Shown: positions 23,021 through 41,598 of the stretch, in pieces
How the letters are laid out: every line of letters starts with the position of its first letter
Numbering within the stretch: position 1 is the stretch's first letter
Origin: Ectothiorhodospira lacustris
Lineage (GTDB): Bacteria; Pseudomonadota; Gammaproteobacteria; Ectothiorhodospirales; Ectothiorhodospiraceae
Assembly: GCF_022227845.1 (NCBI RefSeq)
Contig: NZ_JAJNQN010000018.1
Span: forward strand, 1-64,000
Reading direction: 5' to 3'
DNA: 64,000 nt
The notes under the pieces: generated by a model
The model's database searches: none
What the model saw: the letters and a program-made list of their open reading frames with translations, nothing else
What the model was told of the DNA's origin: nothing
Program-made: the position numbers and the translations under genes

Positions 23021-23491
23021 TTAAAGGGTAGCCACCTCAGCCCACTCATCATCGGTGAGCAGCTTGTTAAGGTCAACCACGATGGTCAGCTCACCATCAC
23101 GACTGGCCACCCCCTGAATGTACTTGGAGCTTTCATCATTGCCGACGTTCGGGGCAGGCTCCACATCACGGGCCGCCAGCTCGATGACCTCGGCCACACT
23201 GTCCACCATGATACCCACCACCTGCCCCCCCACCTCGATGATGACGATCCTGGAGGCATCATCCGAGTCCTTGTCCATAAGCCCCATGCGCCGACGGGCA
23301 TCAATGACCGTCACCACATTGCCCCGCAGGTTGATGATGCCCAGCACGTAGTGGGGGGCTCCGGGGACCGGCGCAATCTCCGTCACCCGCAGCACCTCCT
23401 GCACCTGCATGACGTTGATGGCATAGGTCTCCTCCGCAAGACGGAATGTGACGTATTGAGTGGCAGATGCCGCCTGGGATTCTTTTGCCAT
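23021..23491 (-). CDS. cheW: Chemotaxis coupling protein CheW
   Basis: 156 residues, one CheW domain (about 14-150): YVTFRLAEETYAINVMQVQEVLR, then LRGNVVTVIDARRRMGL and GIMVDSVAEVIEL. It links receptors to the CheA kinase in polar arrays. Same strand as, and 85 bp downstream of, the ParP-like gene, so part of the che/mot series. Confidence 0.94.
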   Translation of the reverse strand: MAKESQAASATQYVTFRLAEETYAINVMQVQEVLRVTEIAPVPGAPHYVLGIINLRGNVVTVIDARRRMGLMDKDSDDASRIVIIEVGGQVVGIMVDSVAEVIELAARDVEPAPNVGNDESSKYIQGVASRDGELTIVVDLNKLLTDDEWAEVATL

Positions 23492-23576: not shown

Positions 23577-24269
23577 TCAGCCCCAAGTCCCCTTTTCCAG
23601 ACTCCGGGCCAGATAGTCCGCATCCAGTATGGCGCACAGATGTTTGATCACCGTGCCGGACAGCCAGGGTCGCTTGCCGCTGGGCGAGCGCCAGCGTACC
23701 AGCTCGGGGGACAGGGTCAGGGTTTCCTCCACCCGGTCACAGACCAACCCCCATCGCCCCTCGTCAATGAGGATCAAATTGCCGGGAGGCGGTCTGTTCG
23801 CCAGACGATCCGGCGGCAATACGTGGGGGCTGATATCCACCACTTTCACCTTGCGGCCATGATGCTCCGTCAGTCCCAGAAACAGGGAACTGTGGCCGGG
23901 CATGGGGGTGATCTCCCTGGGCATGGTCATGATGCCGGTCAGTTTCACCAGTGGAATCGCCAACGTCACACCGCCCAGCCGGAACAGCAGACACTGAAAG
24001 GGCTTTTGCGCCCATGCCGGAGGGCAATCCTGCGCAGGCGCCGGAGGTGCGGGAGGTGCCGCGATCGGCACGGGTTTGATCGGGGTGACAATGGCCCGCA
24101 CGGGCGCAGGTTTCACGGGCGCAGGCGGCGGTGCAGACCCTGACGGCAGCGGGGTGACTTCAGCGATTTCCTGCAGCAAGTCATCCAGATAGGCGGTCAG
24201 GGCCTGGGGCTCATCCACCACCGTAACCCGGGGCTTGGAATCCTCCGGCCTGTCATCCCGGTGATTCAT
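23577..24269 (-). CDS. CheW-domain protein, ParP-like array-localisation factor
   Basis: 230 residues. An N-terminal acidic segment and a Pro/Ala-rich linker (about 48-85, PLPSGSAPPPAPVKPAPV) precede a CheW-type domain (about 95-225, FQCLLFRLGGVTLAIPLVKLTGI). In Vibrio and Pseudomonas a protein of this architecture next to a ParA-like ATPase is ParP, which recruits CheA arrays to the old pole. The 4-bp overlap with the ATPase gene and CheW downstream fit this. Named by context; the interaction itself cannot be seen. Confidence 0.78.
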   Translation of the reverse strand: MNHRDDRPEDSKPRVTVVDEPQALTAYLDDLLQEIAEVTPLPSGSAPPPAPVKPAPVRAIVTPIKPVPIAAPPAPPAPAQDCPPAWAQKPFQCLLFRLGGVTLAIPLVKLTGIMTMPREITPMPGHSSLFLGLTEHHGRKVKVVDISPHVLPPDRLANRPPPGNLILIDEGRWGLVCDRVEETLTLSPELVRWRSPSGKRPWLSGTVIKHLCAILDADYLARSLEKGTWG

Positions 24270-25063
24270 GATGCGGCCCTGCGGCGAAAGTCATGCTGTC
24301 CCAACAAGGAATCCAGCAGGCGTGCATAAGCCTCGGTCCCGCGGGCATCCGGCAGCATGATGGGCAGAGGCATGCCGGCGATGGCCGCCTCCCTGAATTT
24401 GGTATCCACCGTGATCACCCCCTGCCAGAGACAGTCACTGTAATTGTCACGCAACTCCCATAGGGCCTGGGTAGATGCGCGGGTACGGCGGTCAAACAGG
24501 GTGGGTACCACCACGTACTCCAATGCATCCTTGCGCGAGCGCTGGATCATTTTCAATGTCTGCAGCATGCGGTCAAGCCCGCGAATGGCCAGGTATTCCG
24601 TCTGCACGGGGATGAGCAGCTTGCTACAGGCAGCCAGTGCATTCACCATCAACACCCCCAGCATGGGAGGGCAGTCCAGCAGGACGTATTCAAACCGCCC
24701 CTGCAGCCCCTGAATCGCCCGTTTGATGACCAGGCCCATCCCCTCCCGGGTTCCCAACTGACGATCCAGCGTGGCCTGGGCCGTCGATGCGGGCAGGATG
24801 TACAAGTGATCGAAGCGGGTGGCGCGTACCGCCCCGCTTGCCTGGATCGGCCTGCCTTCCGCAGCCTGATGAAACAGGCTGTAGACGCCGCCGGTGGCCC
24901 CTTCCGGATCGCCGCCGAAATAGGCGGTCAGTGAACCGTGGGGATCCAGGTCCACCAGCAGGGTCTCATGCCCCCTGGCCGCCAGCAGCCCGCCCAGGGA
25001 CACCGTGGTGGTGGTCTTACCCACGCCCCCCTTCTGATTGGCGACAGCCCATATCACGGTCAT
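24266..25063 (-). CDS. parC: ParA-family ATPase, ParC-like
   Basis: 265 residues. Deviant Walker A motif QKGGVGKTTTT at 10-20, switch I DLDPHGSL, and Walker B LLDCPPMLGVL. It belongs to the MinD/ParA group. Located between motD and the ParP-like gene with 4-bp overlaps on both sides. That is the position of ParC, which places chemotaxis arrays at the pole; it is not a chromosome-partition ParA since no parB or parS lies nearby. Confidence 0.85.
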   Translation of the reverse strand: MTVIWAVANQKGGVGKTTTTVSLGGLLAARGHETLLVDLDPHGSLTAYFGGDPEGATGGVYSLFHQAAEGRPIQASGAVRATRFDHLYILPASTAQATLDRQLGTREGMGLVIKRAIQGLQGRFEYVLLDCPPMLGVLMVNALAACSKLLIPVQTEYLAIRGLDRMLQTLKMIQRSRKDALEYVVVPTLFDRRTRASTQALWELRDNYSDCLWQGVITVDTKFREAAIAGMPLPIMLPDARGTEAYARLLDSLLGQHDFRRRAAS

Positions 25064-26750: not shown

Positions 26751-27878
26751 TCAGCACCCCTCGGCCAGCAATCTGCCGATCTGGGACAGGGGCAGGACAC
26801 GATCCGCAAGCCCCGCATCCACCACGGCGGCCGGCATGCCGTACACTACGCAGCTCTCTTCGTCCTGGGCCCAGATCTTTGCGCCGCATCGCTTCAGGAG
26901 CCGTGCCCCCTCCCGGCCATCGGCGCCCATGCCGGTCATGATGATGGCCAAGGCATCGCCGCGGAAGGCCGCAGCGGCGGAATTGAAGGTGACATCCACG
27001 CTGGGGCGGTAATGTTGCTCGGGGGAACTGTCAGTGATCCTGACCCGGTGCTGCCCCCCACGGGCCTCCACCAGCATCTGTTTGCCACCGGGGGCCAGCA
27101 ACGCCAGCCCCGGTGCCAGCACATCGCCATCGCCTGCTTCCTTGATCCGGATCCGACACAGCTGATCCAGGCGCTGGGCGAAGGCGGGGGTGAAGGTGCC
27201 CGGCATGTGCTGTACCAGCAGCAACGGCAGCGGAAAATGGGCGGGCAACTCGGCCAGCACTTTCTGCAGCGCCAGCGGCCCTCCCGTCGAGGTCCCGATG
27301 AGCACCACCCGAAAATCCCGCAATTGAATCGGGGTACGATCCGGGACACTTCGCGCCGATCGGGGTGTCGGCAAGCCGGCAGGCGACGTGACCGCCACGG
27401 GGCGACCTGACGGCGGTGCTGCAGCCCCCCCACGGGAACCCAATCCGGACGACACGGTAGCAGCGGGCGGCGGTGAGAAGCGTCGCCTTCCCACCGCCTT
27501 GACACGACGCCGGAGCACTTCCTTGGCTTGCTCCTGATCACGGGCGATGTCTTCGAATTTTTTGGGCAGGAAATCCACCGCGCCGGCCTCAAGGGCATCC
27601 AGGGTGGCCTTGGCGCCTTCCGTGGTGATGGAAGAAAACATCAGGATCGGCACAGGATTGCGGGCCATGATGCGCCTCACCGCAGTGATACCGTCCATCA
27701 CCGGCATCTCGATATCCATGGTGATCACGTCAGGACTGAGACTGGCGGCCTGGTCCACTGCCTCCTGGCCGTTACTCGCGGTCCCCACCACCTCAATGGA
27801 CGGATCGGCATTCAGGATTTCCACGATGCGACGCCGGAAGAATCCGGAATCGTCCACCACCAGAACGCGAACCGCCAT
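26751..27878 (-). CDS. cheB: Chemotaxis methylesterase/response regulator CheB
   Basis: 375 residues. Receiver domain 1-120 with phospho-acceptor Asp55 (ITMDIEMP) and Lys106. A Pro/Ser-rich linker 133-185 is followed by the CheB methylesterase domain: Ser197 in GTSTGG, His224 in VQHMPG and Asp320 in GMGADG form the triad. It demethylates and deamidates receptors. Chosen start ATG 27878 ([10 protein letters not shown]) has GGAGAG 5 nt upstream; the ten extra codons to 27905 are not needed. No cheR is in the window. Confidence 0.95.
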
Positions 27879-27951
27879 CAAATCTCTCCGTCTTTTCCAG
27901 GTCATGGGCCCCGCATCCGGATCGTTCGGGATGATGCGGGGACAGGTCAGA

Positions 27952-29979
27952 TCAGTGCCTTCTGGCGTAATTCTTCAGAAGTCCAGGCACATCAAGGATC
28001 AGCGCTATACCCCCATCACCGGTGATGGTTGCACCTGCCAGTCCGGGGACTCCGTGCAGCATATTGCCCAGGGGCTTGATAACCACTTCTTCCTGCCCGA
28101 TCAGGCTGTCCACCACAAAGCCCACCCGTTGATTGCCGCTGAACACCACTACCACATGTCCCATCCCCCGATATTCATCGGTACTGCCGGAAACAAGCCA
28201 CCGCCGCAGATAGTAAAGCGGCAGGGAGCGGTTACGAACCATGATAACCTCCTGATCATCCACACGGTTCGTTCGCGACAGGTCCAGGTCGAAGATTTCA
28301 CTGACATTGGCCAGCGGCAACGCGAAACGCTGTCGGCCCAGCACCACCATCAAGGTCGGCAGAATGGCCAGGGTCAAGGGCAGGCGAATACTCAGGATGC
28401 TGCCCTTGCCCAGTTCGGAAGTGACATCCACCCGTCCATTGAGCTGGGCAATCCGGGTCTTCACCACATCCATACCGACGCCGCGACCGGATACGTCGGA
28501 AATCTCCGTCTTGGTGGAAAAGCCCGCCCTGAAAATGAGATTGAAGGCGTCGTTATCCGAAAGACGCGAAGCCGCATCCTCATCCATCAAGCCTTTTTCC
28601 ACTGCCTTTTTGCGCAGCACATCCGGATCCATGCCCTTGCCGTCATCGGAGATGGTCAGCAGGATATGGTCGCCCTCCTGGGCGGCTGACAGGACCACAT
28701 GGCCGACACGCGGTTTGCCGGCGGCCAAGCGCTCCTCCGGTGACTCGATACCGTGATCCACGGCATTTCGCACCAGGTGCACCAGGGGATCGGCCAGGGC
28801 CTCCACCAGGTTTTTGTCAAGGTCGGTATCTTCCCCCCACAGCTCCAGATTGACCTCCTTTTTGAGACTTCGGGCCAGATCCCGGACCACCCGGGGAAAG
28901 CGCCCGAACACCTTCTTGATCGGCTGCATCCGGGTCTTCATCACGGCCGCCTGAAGATCCGCCGTGACCACGTCCAGATTGGTCACGGCCTTGGATACCT
29001 GTTCATCCCGCATGCGTGAGCGCAAGGTCGCCAGGCGGTTGCGCACCAGCACCAGCTCCCCCACCAGATTCATGATGTCATCCAGACGTTTGGTATCCAC
29101 ACGAACCGATGTATCGGCCAAGGGAGTGGACTTGGCCGCCTTCTCCACGCCGCCGGCTACCGGTGCCGCCGACGATGTTGCTGCCGGCACATTCGGCTGG
29201 GCGGTTTTAGGTCCCTCCCCCTTGCCGTGAAGGCTGTCCAGCAGGCTTTCGAATTCATCATCGGAGATGGTATCGCCTGCCCCAGGGGGGGATGCCTGGG
29301 CGGAAGCCGCGGACTCCGGCTTTCTACCCTGCAGTTCGTCCAGCAGCTGGTCAAATTCTTCATCGCTGATGGCGTCGCCATCAGCCTGAGCCTTTCCCGC
29401 GGAGACAGGCGGTGGAACCGCAGACGTCATGCTCTCCGGTTTCGGGCCGCCGTTTTGCTTTTGATCCTGAAGGGCATCCAGCAAAGCCTCGAACTCGTCA
29501 TCCGTGATATCCCCCCGAAGCTCCCCCTGAGCCGGCACGGACCGCGGCGACACGGGTGTCGGCACCGGAGGCGGCGGCGGTGCCTCCCCCTGGGGCAGGG
29601 TCAGGGGTTCCAGGGCCGCCATCAGGTGATCCGGCGCAGGGGCCGGCATCTCGCCGGAGCGCACCTCATCAAACATCCGGTTCAACACGTCTACCACCTG
29701 AAGGATGGTATCCATCAGGTTGCTGTCCACATGACGCTGCCCCTGGCGCAGCAGGTTGAACACGTCTTCGGCCCGGTGGCAGATCTTGACCAGGTTTTCC
29801 AGATTCAGGAACCCGGCCCCACCCTTGATGGTGTGGAAACTGCGAAAGACCGAATTGAGCAGATCTTTATCGTCGGGGGTCTGTTCCAGCTGAACCAACT
29901 GCTCACTGAGGCCCTCCAGCAATTCGCCGGCCTCAACCAGAAAGTCCTGAAGGATTTCGTCGTCGGTATCCAGACTCAT
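27952..29979 (-). CDS. cheA: Chemotaxis histidine kinase CheA
   Basis: 675 residues. Hpt (P1) domain with His49 in SFHTIKGG. Then a 200-residue linker without a recognisable P2 fold, containing three copies of the motif I(S/T)D-acidic-EF-x2-LLD-x-L at about 158-170, 204-216 and 238-250. Dimerisation P3 (about 290-355), HATPase P4 (N box [11 protein letters not shown]2 GRGVGMDVV) and CheW-like P5 (about 540-670) follow. It phosphorylates CheY and CheB. The motif copies resemble the FliM N-terminus and the CheZ C-terminus encoded nearby. Confidence 0.95.
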
Positions 29980-30081: not shown

Positions 30082-30840
30082 TTAAAATCCAAGGCTGGAC
30101 AACAAGTCATCCACATCATCCTGGCTTTTTACCACGTCGCCCTGATCCGACGTCCCCTTGACCGCAGGGCCGGCCGGCTCGGTCCCCGCGCCCCTGTCCT
30201 TGCCTTCCGGCGTGGACAGACGCTTACCGGAGATACGCACCAGCCCCACCAGGCTGTCTTCCAGATCCTGCACCAAGGTCATGACGCGGCGGATGACCTG
30301 CCCCGTCAGATCCTGGAAGTCCTGAGCCATGAGCACTTCCGAAAGCTGACTGCGCAGCGTTTCGGCATCCCGTTCCGTATCCTCCAGAAACTCGGCCAGG
30401 GCTTGGCTCACTGAGCGGAACTCGTCCACGGACATTTCCCGCTGGCGAAAACGAGCCCAGTCAGCCCGCAATGCCTGCGCCCGGTTTGCCAACATTTCCG
30501 AGACCGGTAATGCCGCCTCAACGGCGTTCAGGGTGCGATGGGCGGCCTGGTCAGTCATGGCGACCACGTAGTTGAGACGTTCCTTGGCATCCGGAATATC
30601 CTGATGGGTCAGTTCGGAGAGACGGGAATCCAGGCGGAAACTGTTCAAGGCCTCGTGCAGGTCCCGGGTCAGCTTGCCCAGTTCCTGGAACAGCAGACTC
30701 TCGTGCATGCGCCCCATCTCTTCGATGAGTCGCCCAGCCCCTTCTTCATTGCCGGATTCCATGAGCTTGACCAATTCCCGGGCGCGTTCCAGTTGCTGCT
30801 GCTTGAACAGGGCCTCTTTGCTGTCTTCCTGGTTCTCCAT
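30082..30840 (-). CDS. cheZ: CheY-P phosphatase CheZ
   Basis: 252 residues, mostly helical. AQDFQDLTGQVIRR contains the catalytic Asp/Gln pair of CheZ. The last residues, SQDDVDDLLSSLGF, are the CheY-binding tail. A GTG at 30852 overlaps the cheY stop (GTGA) and would add four residues; ATG 30840 is chosen because AAGGG is better spaced, but coupling from the GTG is possible. It dephosphorylates CheY-P. Confidence 0.93.
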   Translation of the reverse strand: MENQEDSKEALFKQQQLERARELVKLMESGNEEGAGRLIEEMGRMHESLLFQELGKLTRDLHEALNSFRLDSRLSELTHQDIPDAKERLNYVVAMTDQAAHRTLNAVEAALPVSEMLANRAQALRADWARFRQREMSVDEFRSVSQALAEFLEDTERDAETLRSQLSEVLMAQDFQDLTGQVIRRVMTLVQDLEDSLVGLVRISGKRLSTPEGKDRGAGTEPAGPAVKGTSDQGDVVKSQDDVDDLLSSLGF

Positions 30841-30848
30841 GACGTTGT

Positions 30849-31241
30849 TCACCCTTTTTCCTGCAGTCTCTCGAAGATCTTGTTGATCTTCTCCTTCAGG
30901 GTTTCCGCGGTGAAAGGCTTGACGATGTAGCCGCTGACACCGGCCTGAGCCGCTTCAACAATCTGCTCGCGCTTGGCCTCGGCCGTCACCATCAGGACGG
31001 GCATGTCCTTGAGCCGGGGATCGGCACGCACAGCCCTCAGCAGATCGATGCCGGGCATGCCGGGCATGTTCCAGTCGGTGACCAGGAAGTCATAGTTACC
31101 GTTCTGCAGCATGGGCAGTGCGGTACTGCCGTCATCAGCCTCAGCGGTATTGTTGTATCCAAGATCCCGCAGCAAGTTCTTGATAATGCGGCGCATCGTG
31201 GAAAAATCATCCACGATGAGGATCTTCATGTTCTTATCCAC
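30849..31241 (-). CDS. cheY: Chemotaxis response regulator CheY
   Basis: 130 residues, a single receiver domain ([15 protein letters not shown]; phospho-acceptor Asp in VTDWNMPGM; Lys in VKPFTAE). It binds FliM to switch motor direction. The likely start is GTG at 31241 ([12 protein letters not shown]) with GGAGG 5 nt upstream; ATG 31229 is possible. 89 bp separate it from fliA. Confidence 0.95.
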
Positions 31242-31330
31242 AATAACCTCCCGATTAAACACACACCGAAGACACGCCCTTGAGCGGGGTGTTCCGGCAT
31301 TCTGAAATCAATTCTGCCGGCAAGAGGGCA

Positions 31331-40608: not shown

Positions 40609-41589
40609 TCATTCACTGAGCCGGATCGGCCCGGTAATCTTGATGGCGTTGAAACCGTCAGAAGTACCAAACTTGCCCCGGAATACGGGGATACCCTCGG
40701 CCCTGACGGTGACCTCTTGGGGGATTTCCACCGGAATGATGTCACCGGGCTTGAGATTGATCATTTCGGCAACGGTGAGCTCGGTTTCCGTCAACTTGGC
40801 GCTGAGTTCCACCTGGACCAGCTTGAGCTCCTCGCGCAGCGCCTTGACCCACCGATCATCCACATCCGCCCGGTCGCTCTGCAGCCCCGTATCCAGCTGT
40901 TCACGAATGGGCTCGATCATGGAATACGGCATGGTCACATGCAGTTCCCCGCCGCCGCCGTCCAGTTCCACATGGAAGGTACAGACCACCACCACCTCGG
41001 TGGGGCTGACGATATTGGCAAACTGAGGGTTGACCTCGGAACGGTTGTATTCGAAATCCAGCTCCATCACCGGCGCCCAGGCCTTTTTGAGATCCGTGAA
41101 GGACTGGTTCAGCAACATGCGTATCACCCGCAATTCCGTCGGGGTGAACTCTCGCCCCTCGATCTTGGCGTGGTAACGGCCATCCCCACCGAAGAAGTTG
41201 TCCACCAGGATGAACACCAGCTTGGGATCAAGCACGAACAAGGCGGTACCGCGCAACGGCCGCACCCGGACCATATTGAGGCTGGTGGGTACATACAGGG
41301 AGTGCACGTATTCTCCGAACTTCATCATCTTGACCCCGCCCACGGAGATTTCCGCCGAGCGTCGCAGGAGTTCGAACAGGCCGATCCGCATGTACCGGGC
41401 AAAACGCTCGTTGATCATCTCCAGGGTGGGCATGCGCCCCCGGACAATGCGATCCTGGGTGGTTAGGTCATACCCCCTGGCCACACCGTCATGAGCCAGG
41501 AGCTGGTCCCCAGTCTCCACCGCACCGCTGTCCACCCCGTGCAACAGGGCATCAATTTCGTCCTGGGAAAGAAGATCACTGGTGGCCAT
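40609..41589 (-). CDS. fliM: Flagellar motor switch protein FliM
   Basis: 326 residues. The N-terminal CheY-P docking peptide LLSQDEIDALLHG (about 5-17) is followed by the CheC-like middle domain and a C-terminal SpoA domain that pairs with FliN. GTG at 41592 directly precedes the chosen ATG; GAGG is 7 nt from the ATG. Confidence 0.95.
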   Translation of the reverse strand: MATSDLLSQDEIDALLHGVDSGAVETGDQLLAHDGVARGYDLTTQDRIVRGRMPTLEMINERFARYMRIGLFELLRRSAEISVGGVKMMKFGEYVHSLYVPTSLNMVRVRPLRGTALFVLDPKLVFILVDNFFGGDGRYHAKIEGREFTPTELRVIRMLLNQSFTDLKKAWAPVMELDFEYNRSEVNPQFANIVSPTEVVVVCTFHVELDGGGGELHVTMPYSMIEPIREQLDTGLQSDRADVDDRWVKALREELKLVQVELSAKLTETELTVAEMINLKPGDIIPVEIPQEVTVRAEGIPVFRGKFGTSDGFNAIKITGPIRLSE

Positions 41590-41598
41590 CACGTTGCC

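Follow-up and report, generated by a model that had tools for sequence, protein, structure and literature searches.

We analysed a 64,000-nucleotide stretch of the Ectothiorhodospira lacustris genome (the window) that carries, on the minus strand, a chemotaxis and motility cluster with fliM (40609–41592), flhF, flhG, fliA, cheY (30849–31262), cheZ (30082–30852), cheA (27952–29979) and cheB (26751–27905), together with a motA/motB pair, a gene for a ParC-like ATPase of the ParA family (24266–25063), a parP-like gene whose product has a CheW-like C-terminal domain (23577–24269) and cheW (23021–23491). The names flhF, flhG and fliA were given from the sequences. Gene order and the neighbours of homologues reveal the F6-type cheYZAB-parCP-cheW set, with all seven genes together here; the class name is borrowed from PMC7534058 and PMC7184735, and the window CheA is assigned to the class by gene order. 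The same genome (G000) encodes four more CheA-type kinases on contigs C5, C6, C47 and C48, and for the kinase on C6, whose open frame spans 1843 aa, the listed matches include two P1-like ones.

A repeated motif in a CheA linker without P2

The 675-residue product of cheA consists of P1 (residues 8–107), a linker (about 127–293), P3 (290–349), P4 (397–536) and P5 (543–669), as delimited by Pfam and AlphaFold2. The linker contains three copies of the motif I-[T/S]-[D/E]-[D/E]-E-F-[E/D]-x-L-L-D-x-L, at residues 158–170 (29470–29508, minus strand), 204–216 (29332–29370, minus strand) and 238–250 (29230–29268, minus strand). The third copy is followed by HGKG, as are most last copies of the homologues. 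AlphaFold2 (63 sequences) gives the linker low confidence and folds each copy as a short helix (160–175, 206–216 and 240–250); residues 127–293 have no other helices. The copies were originally described as lying at regular distances, which is wrong: they are 46 and 34 residues apart here and 26–111 residues apart in homologues (median 43). In the linker consensus of the class the motif is the conserved feature, with no other strongly conserved block, and the first, middle and last copies have almost identical consensus sequences. Alignment A3 was built without L137, because of its length, and without the window's own CheA.

The motif lies far above chance. Searched as a DNA pattern throughout the 3.28 Mb genome, E-F-[D/E]-x-L-L-D turns up four times: in the three CheA motifs and once as EFEAFLD. 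This near-uniqueness, together with the shuffled linkers and matrix ranks given below, rules out chance or acidic composition as the source of the motif, and the original prediction of three FliM-like acidic motifs in the linker holds. The linker matched nothing in the PDB at E 10. The literature searched, which covers few subscription papers, yielded no description of the motif.

Pfam finds P1, P3, P4 and P5 in the window CheA and no P2. The CheY-binding domain P2 (PF07194, PF09078) shares with the motif region its position between P1 and P3 and the job that we propose for the motifs; it differs in being a folded domain, which neither Pfam nor hhalign detects here and which is not seen in the AlphaFold2 linker. 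In a profile–profile comparison (hhalign), 105 class linkers aligned with a four-sequence P2 alignment at 0.1% probability, whereas the same P2 alignment reached 96.7% against eight other CheAs, five of which themselves have no Pfam CheY-binding match. This comparison rules out a P2 concealed by divergence, and the P2 fold that would have spoken against the original prediction was sought and not found. The Pfam search of the 105 linkers, read from the best 25 of 75 families, by itself allows P2 matches in at most 2 of the 105. According to PMC10782961, more than half of all CheAs lack P2, and deletion of P2 from Escherichia coli CheA slows phosphotransfer; the accessible text of that paper describes the P2-less stretch only as an extended unstructured region and does not explain how CheY is held.

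Distribution of the motif among CheA homologues

The survey of homologues that accompanied the original prediction as a proposal shows the motif to be class-wide. Our sample came from 274 gammaproteobacterial genomes, in 101 of which the best CheA passed E 1e-150; copies were counted in the 93 homologues that bear P1 (the open frames of the other eight have none). Two homologues have no strict copy, 7 have one, 47 have two, 31 have three, 5 have four and 1 has seven. The strict motif is thus present in 91 of the 93, and the other two carry variants: L127 has a variant motif three times and L186 a degenerate pair. The CheA with seven strict copies (L137, from G033) has a very long linker in an open frame of 1073 aa. 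The 80 named loci, with 2–4 strict copies each, were excluded from these frequencies because the search pattern that turned up part of them (DITDDEFE) was taken from the motif itself.

A second sample of 93 rows combined 90 CheA rows from a phylum listing with three loci of the window's genome; the linker is truncated in two rows (L252, L292), and one gene appears twice, as L189 and L245. Fourteen rows resemble the class by P3, and all 14 carry one to four strict copies. The 79 other CheA rows have no motif in any linker, with three matches that fall inside P1. Among the other kinases of the window's genome, L189, L190 and L191 have no motif, the scope of this comparison being the kinases outside contig C6. 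The motif marks one CheA class.

Likeness to the FliM and CheZ peptides

FliM carries the peptide LLSQDEIDALLHG near its N-terminus, and CheZ ends in the peptide SQDDVDDLLSSLGF. We sought FliM in 30 other genomes and found it in 28, all of which have the N-terminal peptide. A ten-residue profile made from these 28 genomes was scanned over all window open frames of at least 60 residues (76,512 positions). The best-scoring position is FliM itself, followed by the CheZ tail, and ranks 3 to 5 go to the three CheA motifs, all in register; the position at rank 6, which is unrelated, trails the fifth by only 0.2 bits. The likeness between the FliM start, the CheZ end and the CheA motifs that had been noted by eye is therefore objective. 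A CheZ-tail profile places FliM at rank 2, CheA motif 3 at rank 4 and CheA motif 2 at rank 14 in the window, with motif 1 not among the best 14 positions. When a matrix was made from 221 CheA copies of other genomes, without the window, the three CheA motifs came first among 74,880 positions, and the reverse test with the same matrix put FliM at rank 5 and CheZ at rank 13. In linker scans (180 residues before P3; 480 for L137), the FliM profile reaches at least 12 bits in 89 of 107 class linkers, compared with 2 of 76 other linkers and 5 of 2140 shuffled linkers, and its best position is the motif in register in 105 of the 107. The sole two non-class linkers above this threshold (L232 and L249) match inside P2, at VSQDDISAVL and VSDDDIEAVM; we regard the P2 stretch SQDDISAVL as a curiosity, since its hydrophobic side may face inward in the folded domain.

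The likeness spans ten residues, and the CheA sequence is in register with the FliM contacts: FliM L6-S7-Q8-[D/E]9-E10-[I/V]11-D12-A13-L14-L15 aligns with CheA I-[T/S]-[D/E]-[D/E]-E-F-[E/D]-A-L-L. A paper on Vibrio cholerae CheY3 (PMC3774744, Table 3) lists L6, I11, D12 (to K119), L14 and L15 of the FliM peptide, among others, as contacts with CheY, and states that CheZ shares FliM's face of CheY. CheA has counterparts of all five residues. At these positions the 247 strict CheA copies have I in 93%, F in 100%, E or D in 100%, L in 91% and L in 99%; the strict pattern presets the E that opens the core, the E/D following F and a hydrophobic residue at the F and both L positions, but not the F as such.

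The same position also provides the clearest difference. The second core residue is F in 247 of 247 strict CheA copies, compared with I or V in 28 of 28 FliM peptides, and the CheZ tail has mostly V there, so that CheA departs from the I or V found at FliM position 11. This systematic exchange weighs most heavily against a simple shared code, and it could mean another partner. The CheA motif further differs from the FliM peptide in having D or E for Q8 and an extra D-x-L-H-G, and it occurs in several internal copies, whereas FliM has one near its N-terminus. The CheZ peptide shares the acidic D/E-x-x-LL core and the further L three positions after it (LLSSL in place of LLDSL); it has V for F, lies at the extreme C-terminus and lacks an I/L four residues before the core. 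It also counts against the docking reading that neither FliM nor CheZ fully matches the conserved HGKG tail of CheA. The shared peptide code of the original prediction accordingly survives in part: the likeness and the contact-residue counterparts stand, and the F that replaces the I or V of the other two peptides speaks against it.

Joint deviation of CheA core and CheZ tail, alongside a standard FliM, occurs in two genomes: G010 (L164) has VL in the CheA core and IL in the CheZ tail, and G025 (L186) has a degenerate CheA core and the CheZ tail ADSLLDDLGI. Two cases prove nothing.

CheY, ParP and other candidate partners

The motifs are probably CheY-docking peptides of the FliM/CheZ type that stand in for the missing P2. 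Each motif would form a short acidic helix docked against alpha4-beta5-alpha5, the CheY face that FliM and CheZ use, and the flexible tether would hold CheY near the P1 phosphohistidine, giving a CheA dimer six sites, three on each chain. CheY would dock on any of the six motifs, take the phosphate and leave for FliM, while CheZ would compete for the same face. We infer CheY binding and the face used, as well as a preference for unphosphorylated CheY and any effect of copy number, such as the rise in local CheY that three copies might bring.

The face residues of the proposed partner are conserved. A CheY match was found in 89 of the 101 loci, with I95, A99, Y106 and K119 invariant (E. coli numbering); position 92 is R in 76 and K in 13, position 94 is Q in 85, position 103 is V in 87 and position 117 is K in 77. 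Since FliM and CheZ use the same residues, this conservation is not independent evidence. CheYs recruited from F6 to F7 kinases are reported to carry R92K, Q94N and V103A on the P2-facing side, and K117E in a helix known to interact with FliM (PMC7184735); the window CheY has R92, Q94, V103, K117 and K119. These changes fit a non-P2 docking element on the kinase side of the F6 class and are no proof of it. Position 117 covaries with the motif in three of four deviant genomes (rank 4 of 137 positions), a weak signal that we discount because the deviants are too few and too divergent overall.

The ParC and ParP genes of the cluster, and the Vibrio CheA LID ('localization and inheritance domain'), had no place in the original prediction. 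Vibrio ParP binds the LID, which in the accessible text of PMC5706961 and PMC7534058 is reported only with ParC/ParP and which the latter places between P2 and P3. The motifs could accordingly be a LID, bound by the CheW-like domain of ParP and tying CheA to the pole through ParC. We think this unlikely, although the published binding concerns the same part of CheA, parC and parP lie in the window cluster, and the linker offers no second strongly conserved block. We searched 32 genomes for ParC and ParP and took the upper score groups as real (best ParC scores are at least 288 or at most 206 bits, best ParP scores at least 79 or at most 49). With the loci included, 80 genomes have ParP, 10 have neither protein, 6 have ParC only and 5 are of unknown status; the comparison was made without these five. 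All 15 P1-bearing CheAs of ParP-less genomes keep at least one copy, one of them degenerate, and in genomes without detected ParC and ParP the E-F-[E/D] motif is present in eight of nine P1-bearing CheAs and degenerate in the ninth. The CheA motif is thus kept without both proteins, unlike the Vibrio LID, and, barring a divergent ParP that escaped the search, ParP is not the sole reason for it. The presence of ParP changes at least 10 times on a tree of 88 P3–P5 sequences. A LID would also not predict the likeness to FliM and CheZ.

Copy number is suggestively lower without ParP, a trend that would suit ParP binding. The mean is 1.87 copies in ParP-less genomes (n=15) and 2.68 in ParP-bearing genomes (n=73), with a rank-test p of 0.0009 before ancestry correction; two or more copies occur in 72 of 73 ParP-bearing and 9 of 15 ParP-less genomes, and a single copy in 1 of 73 and 6 of 15, respectively. 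The link is lost under ancestry control, where five well-supported independent pairs for the single-copy state gave on average 2.2 for and 0.2 against, which is not significant. The same trend is what one would expect if both partners used one fold, with the copies split between CheY and ParP or the partners in competition; we hold this to be quite unlikely, as the independent pairs fall short of significance here too and the consensus hardly differs between first, middle and last copies.

A ParC-like gene without recognisable ParP occurs in G270, G056, G193, G156, G267 and G111, where ParC may have another partner or ParP may be highly divergent. The ParP N-termini (alignment A1, including the window protein encoded at 23577–24269) share an A-L-x-x-Y-L-x-x-L-L segment with Y in 21 of 21, which falls in the part reported to bind ParC.

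Another partner such as CheB or CheV, or no partner at all, with the motifs serving as generic acidic helical spacers, seems very unlikely to us. In its favour, the generic short-helix family SHOCT of Pfam has matches at E ≤0.1 in 94 of the 105 linkers; against this, the E-F-x-x-L-L-D core is near-invariant in 247 copies, almost unique in the genome and restricted to the class. We took the SHOCT matches as a weak resemblance to a short acidic helix and did not use this identity. P2 is reported to dock CheB as well (PMC11978298). By eye, the receiver of the window CheB has no K-R-x-Q-I stretch such as CheY has; for this reason CheB looks less likely and was set aside as the main partner.

In its widest form the proposal would be that a whole kinase class has swapped P2 for a string of FliM/CheZ-type peptides, that a single peptide code sets kinase, phosphatase and motor in competition for one CheY face, and that some copies are lent to ParP, coupling docking to the anchoring of the polar array; taken as a whole, this is rather doubtful. 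If CheY docking is correct, variants of one peptide would let kinase, phosphatase and motor recognise a common face of CheY, and the exchange of I or V for F may tell CheY from CheY-P. The occurrence of the same peptides in related kinases suggests a simple answer to how P2-less kinases may work, and how such kinases hold CheY becomes directly testable with a defined peptide that can be counted and belongs to one large class.
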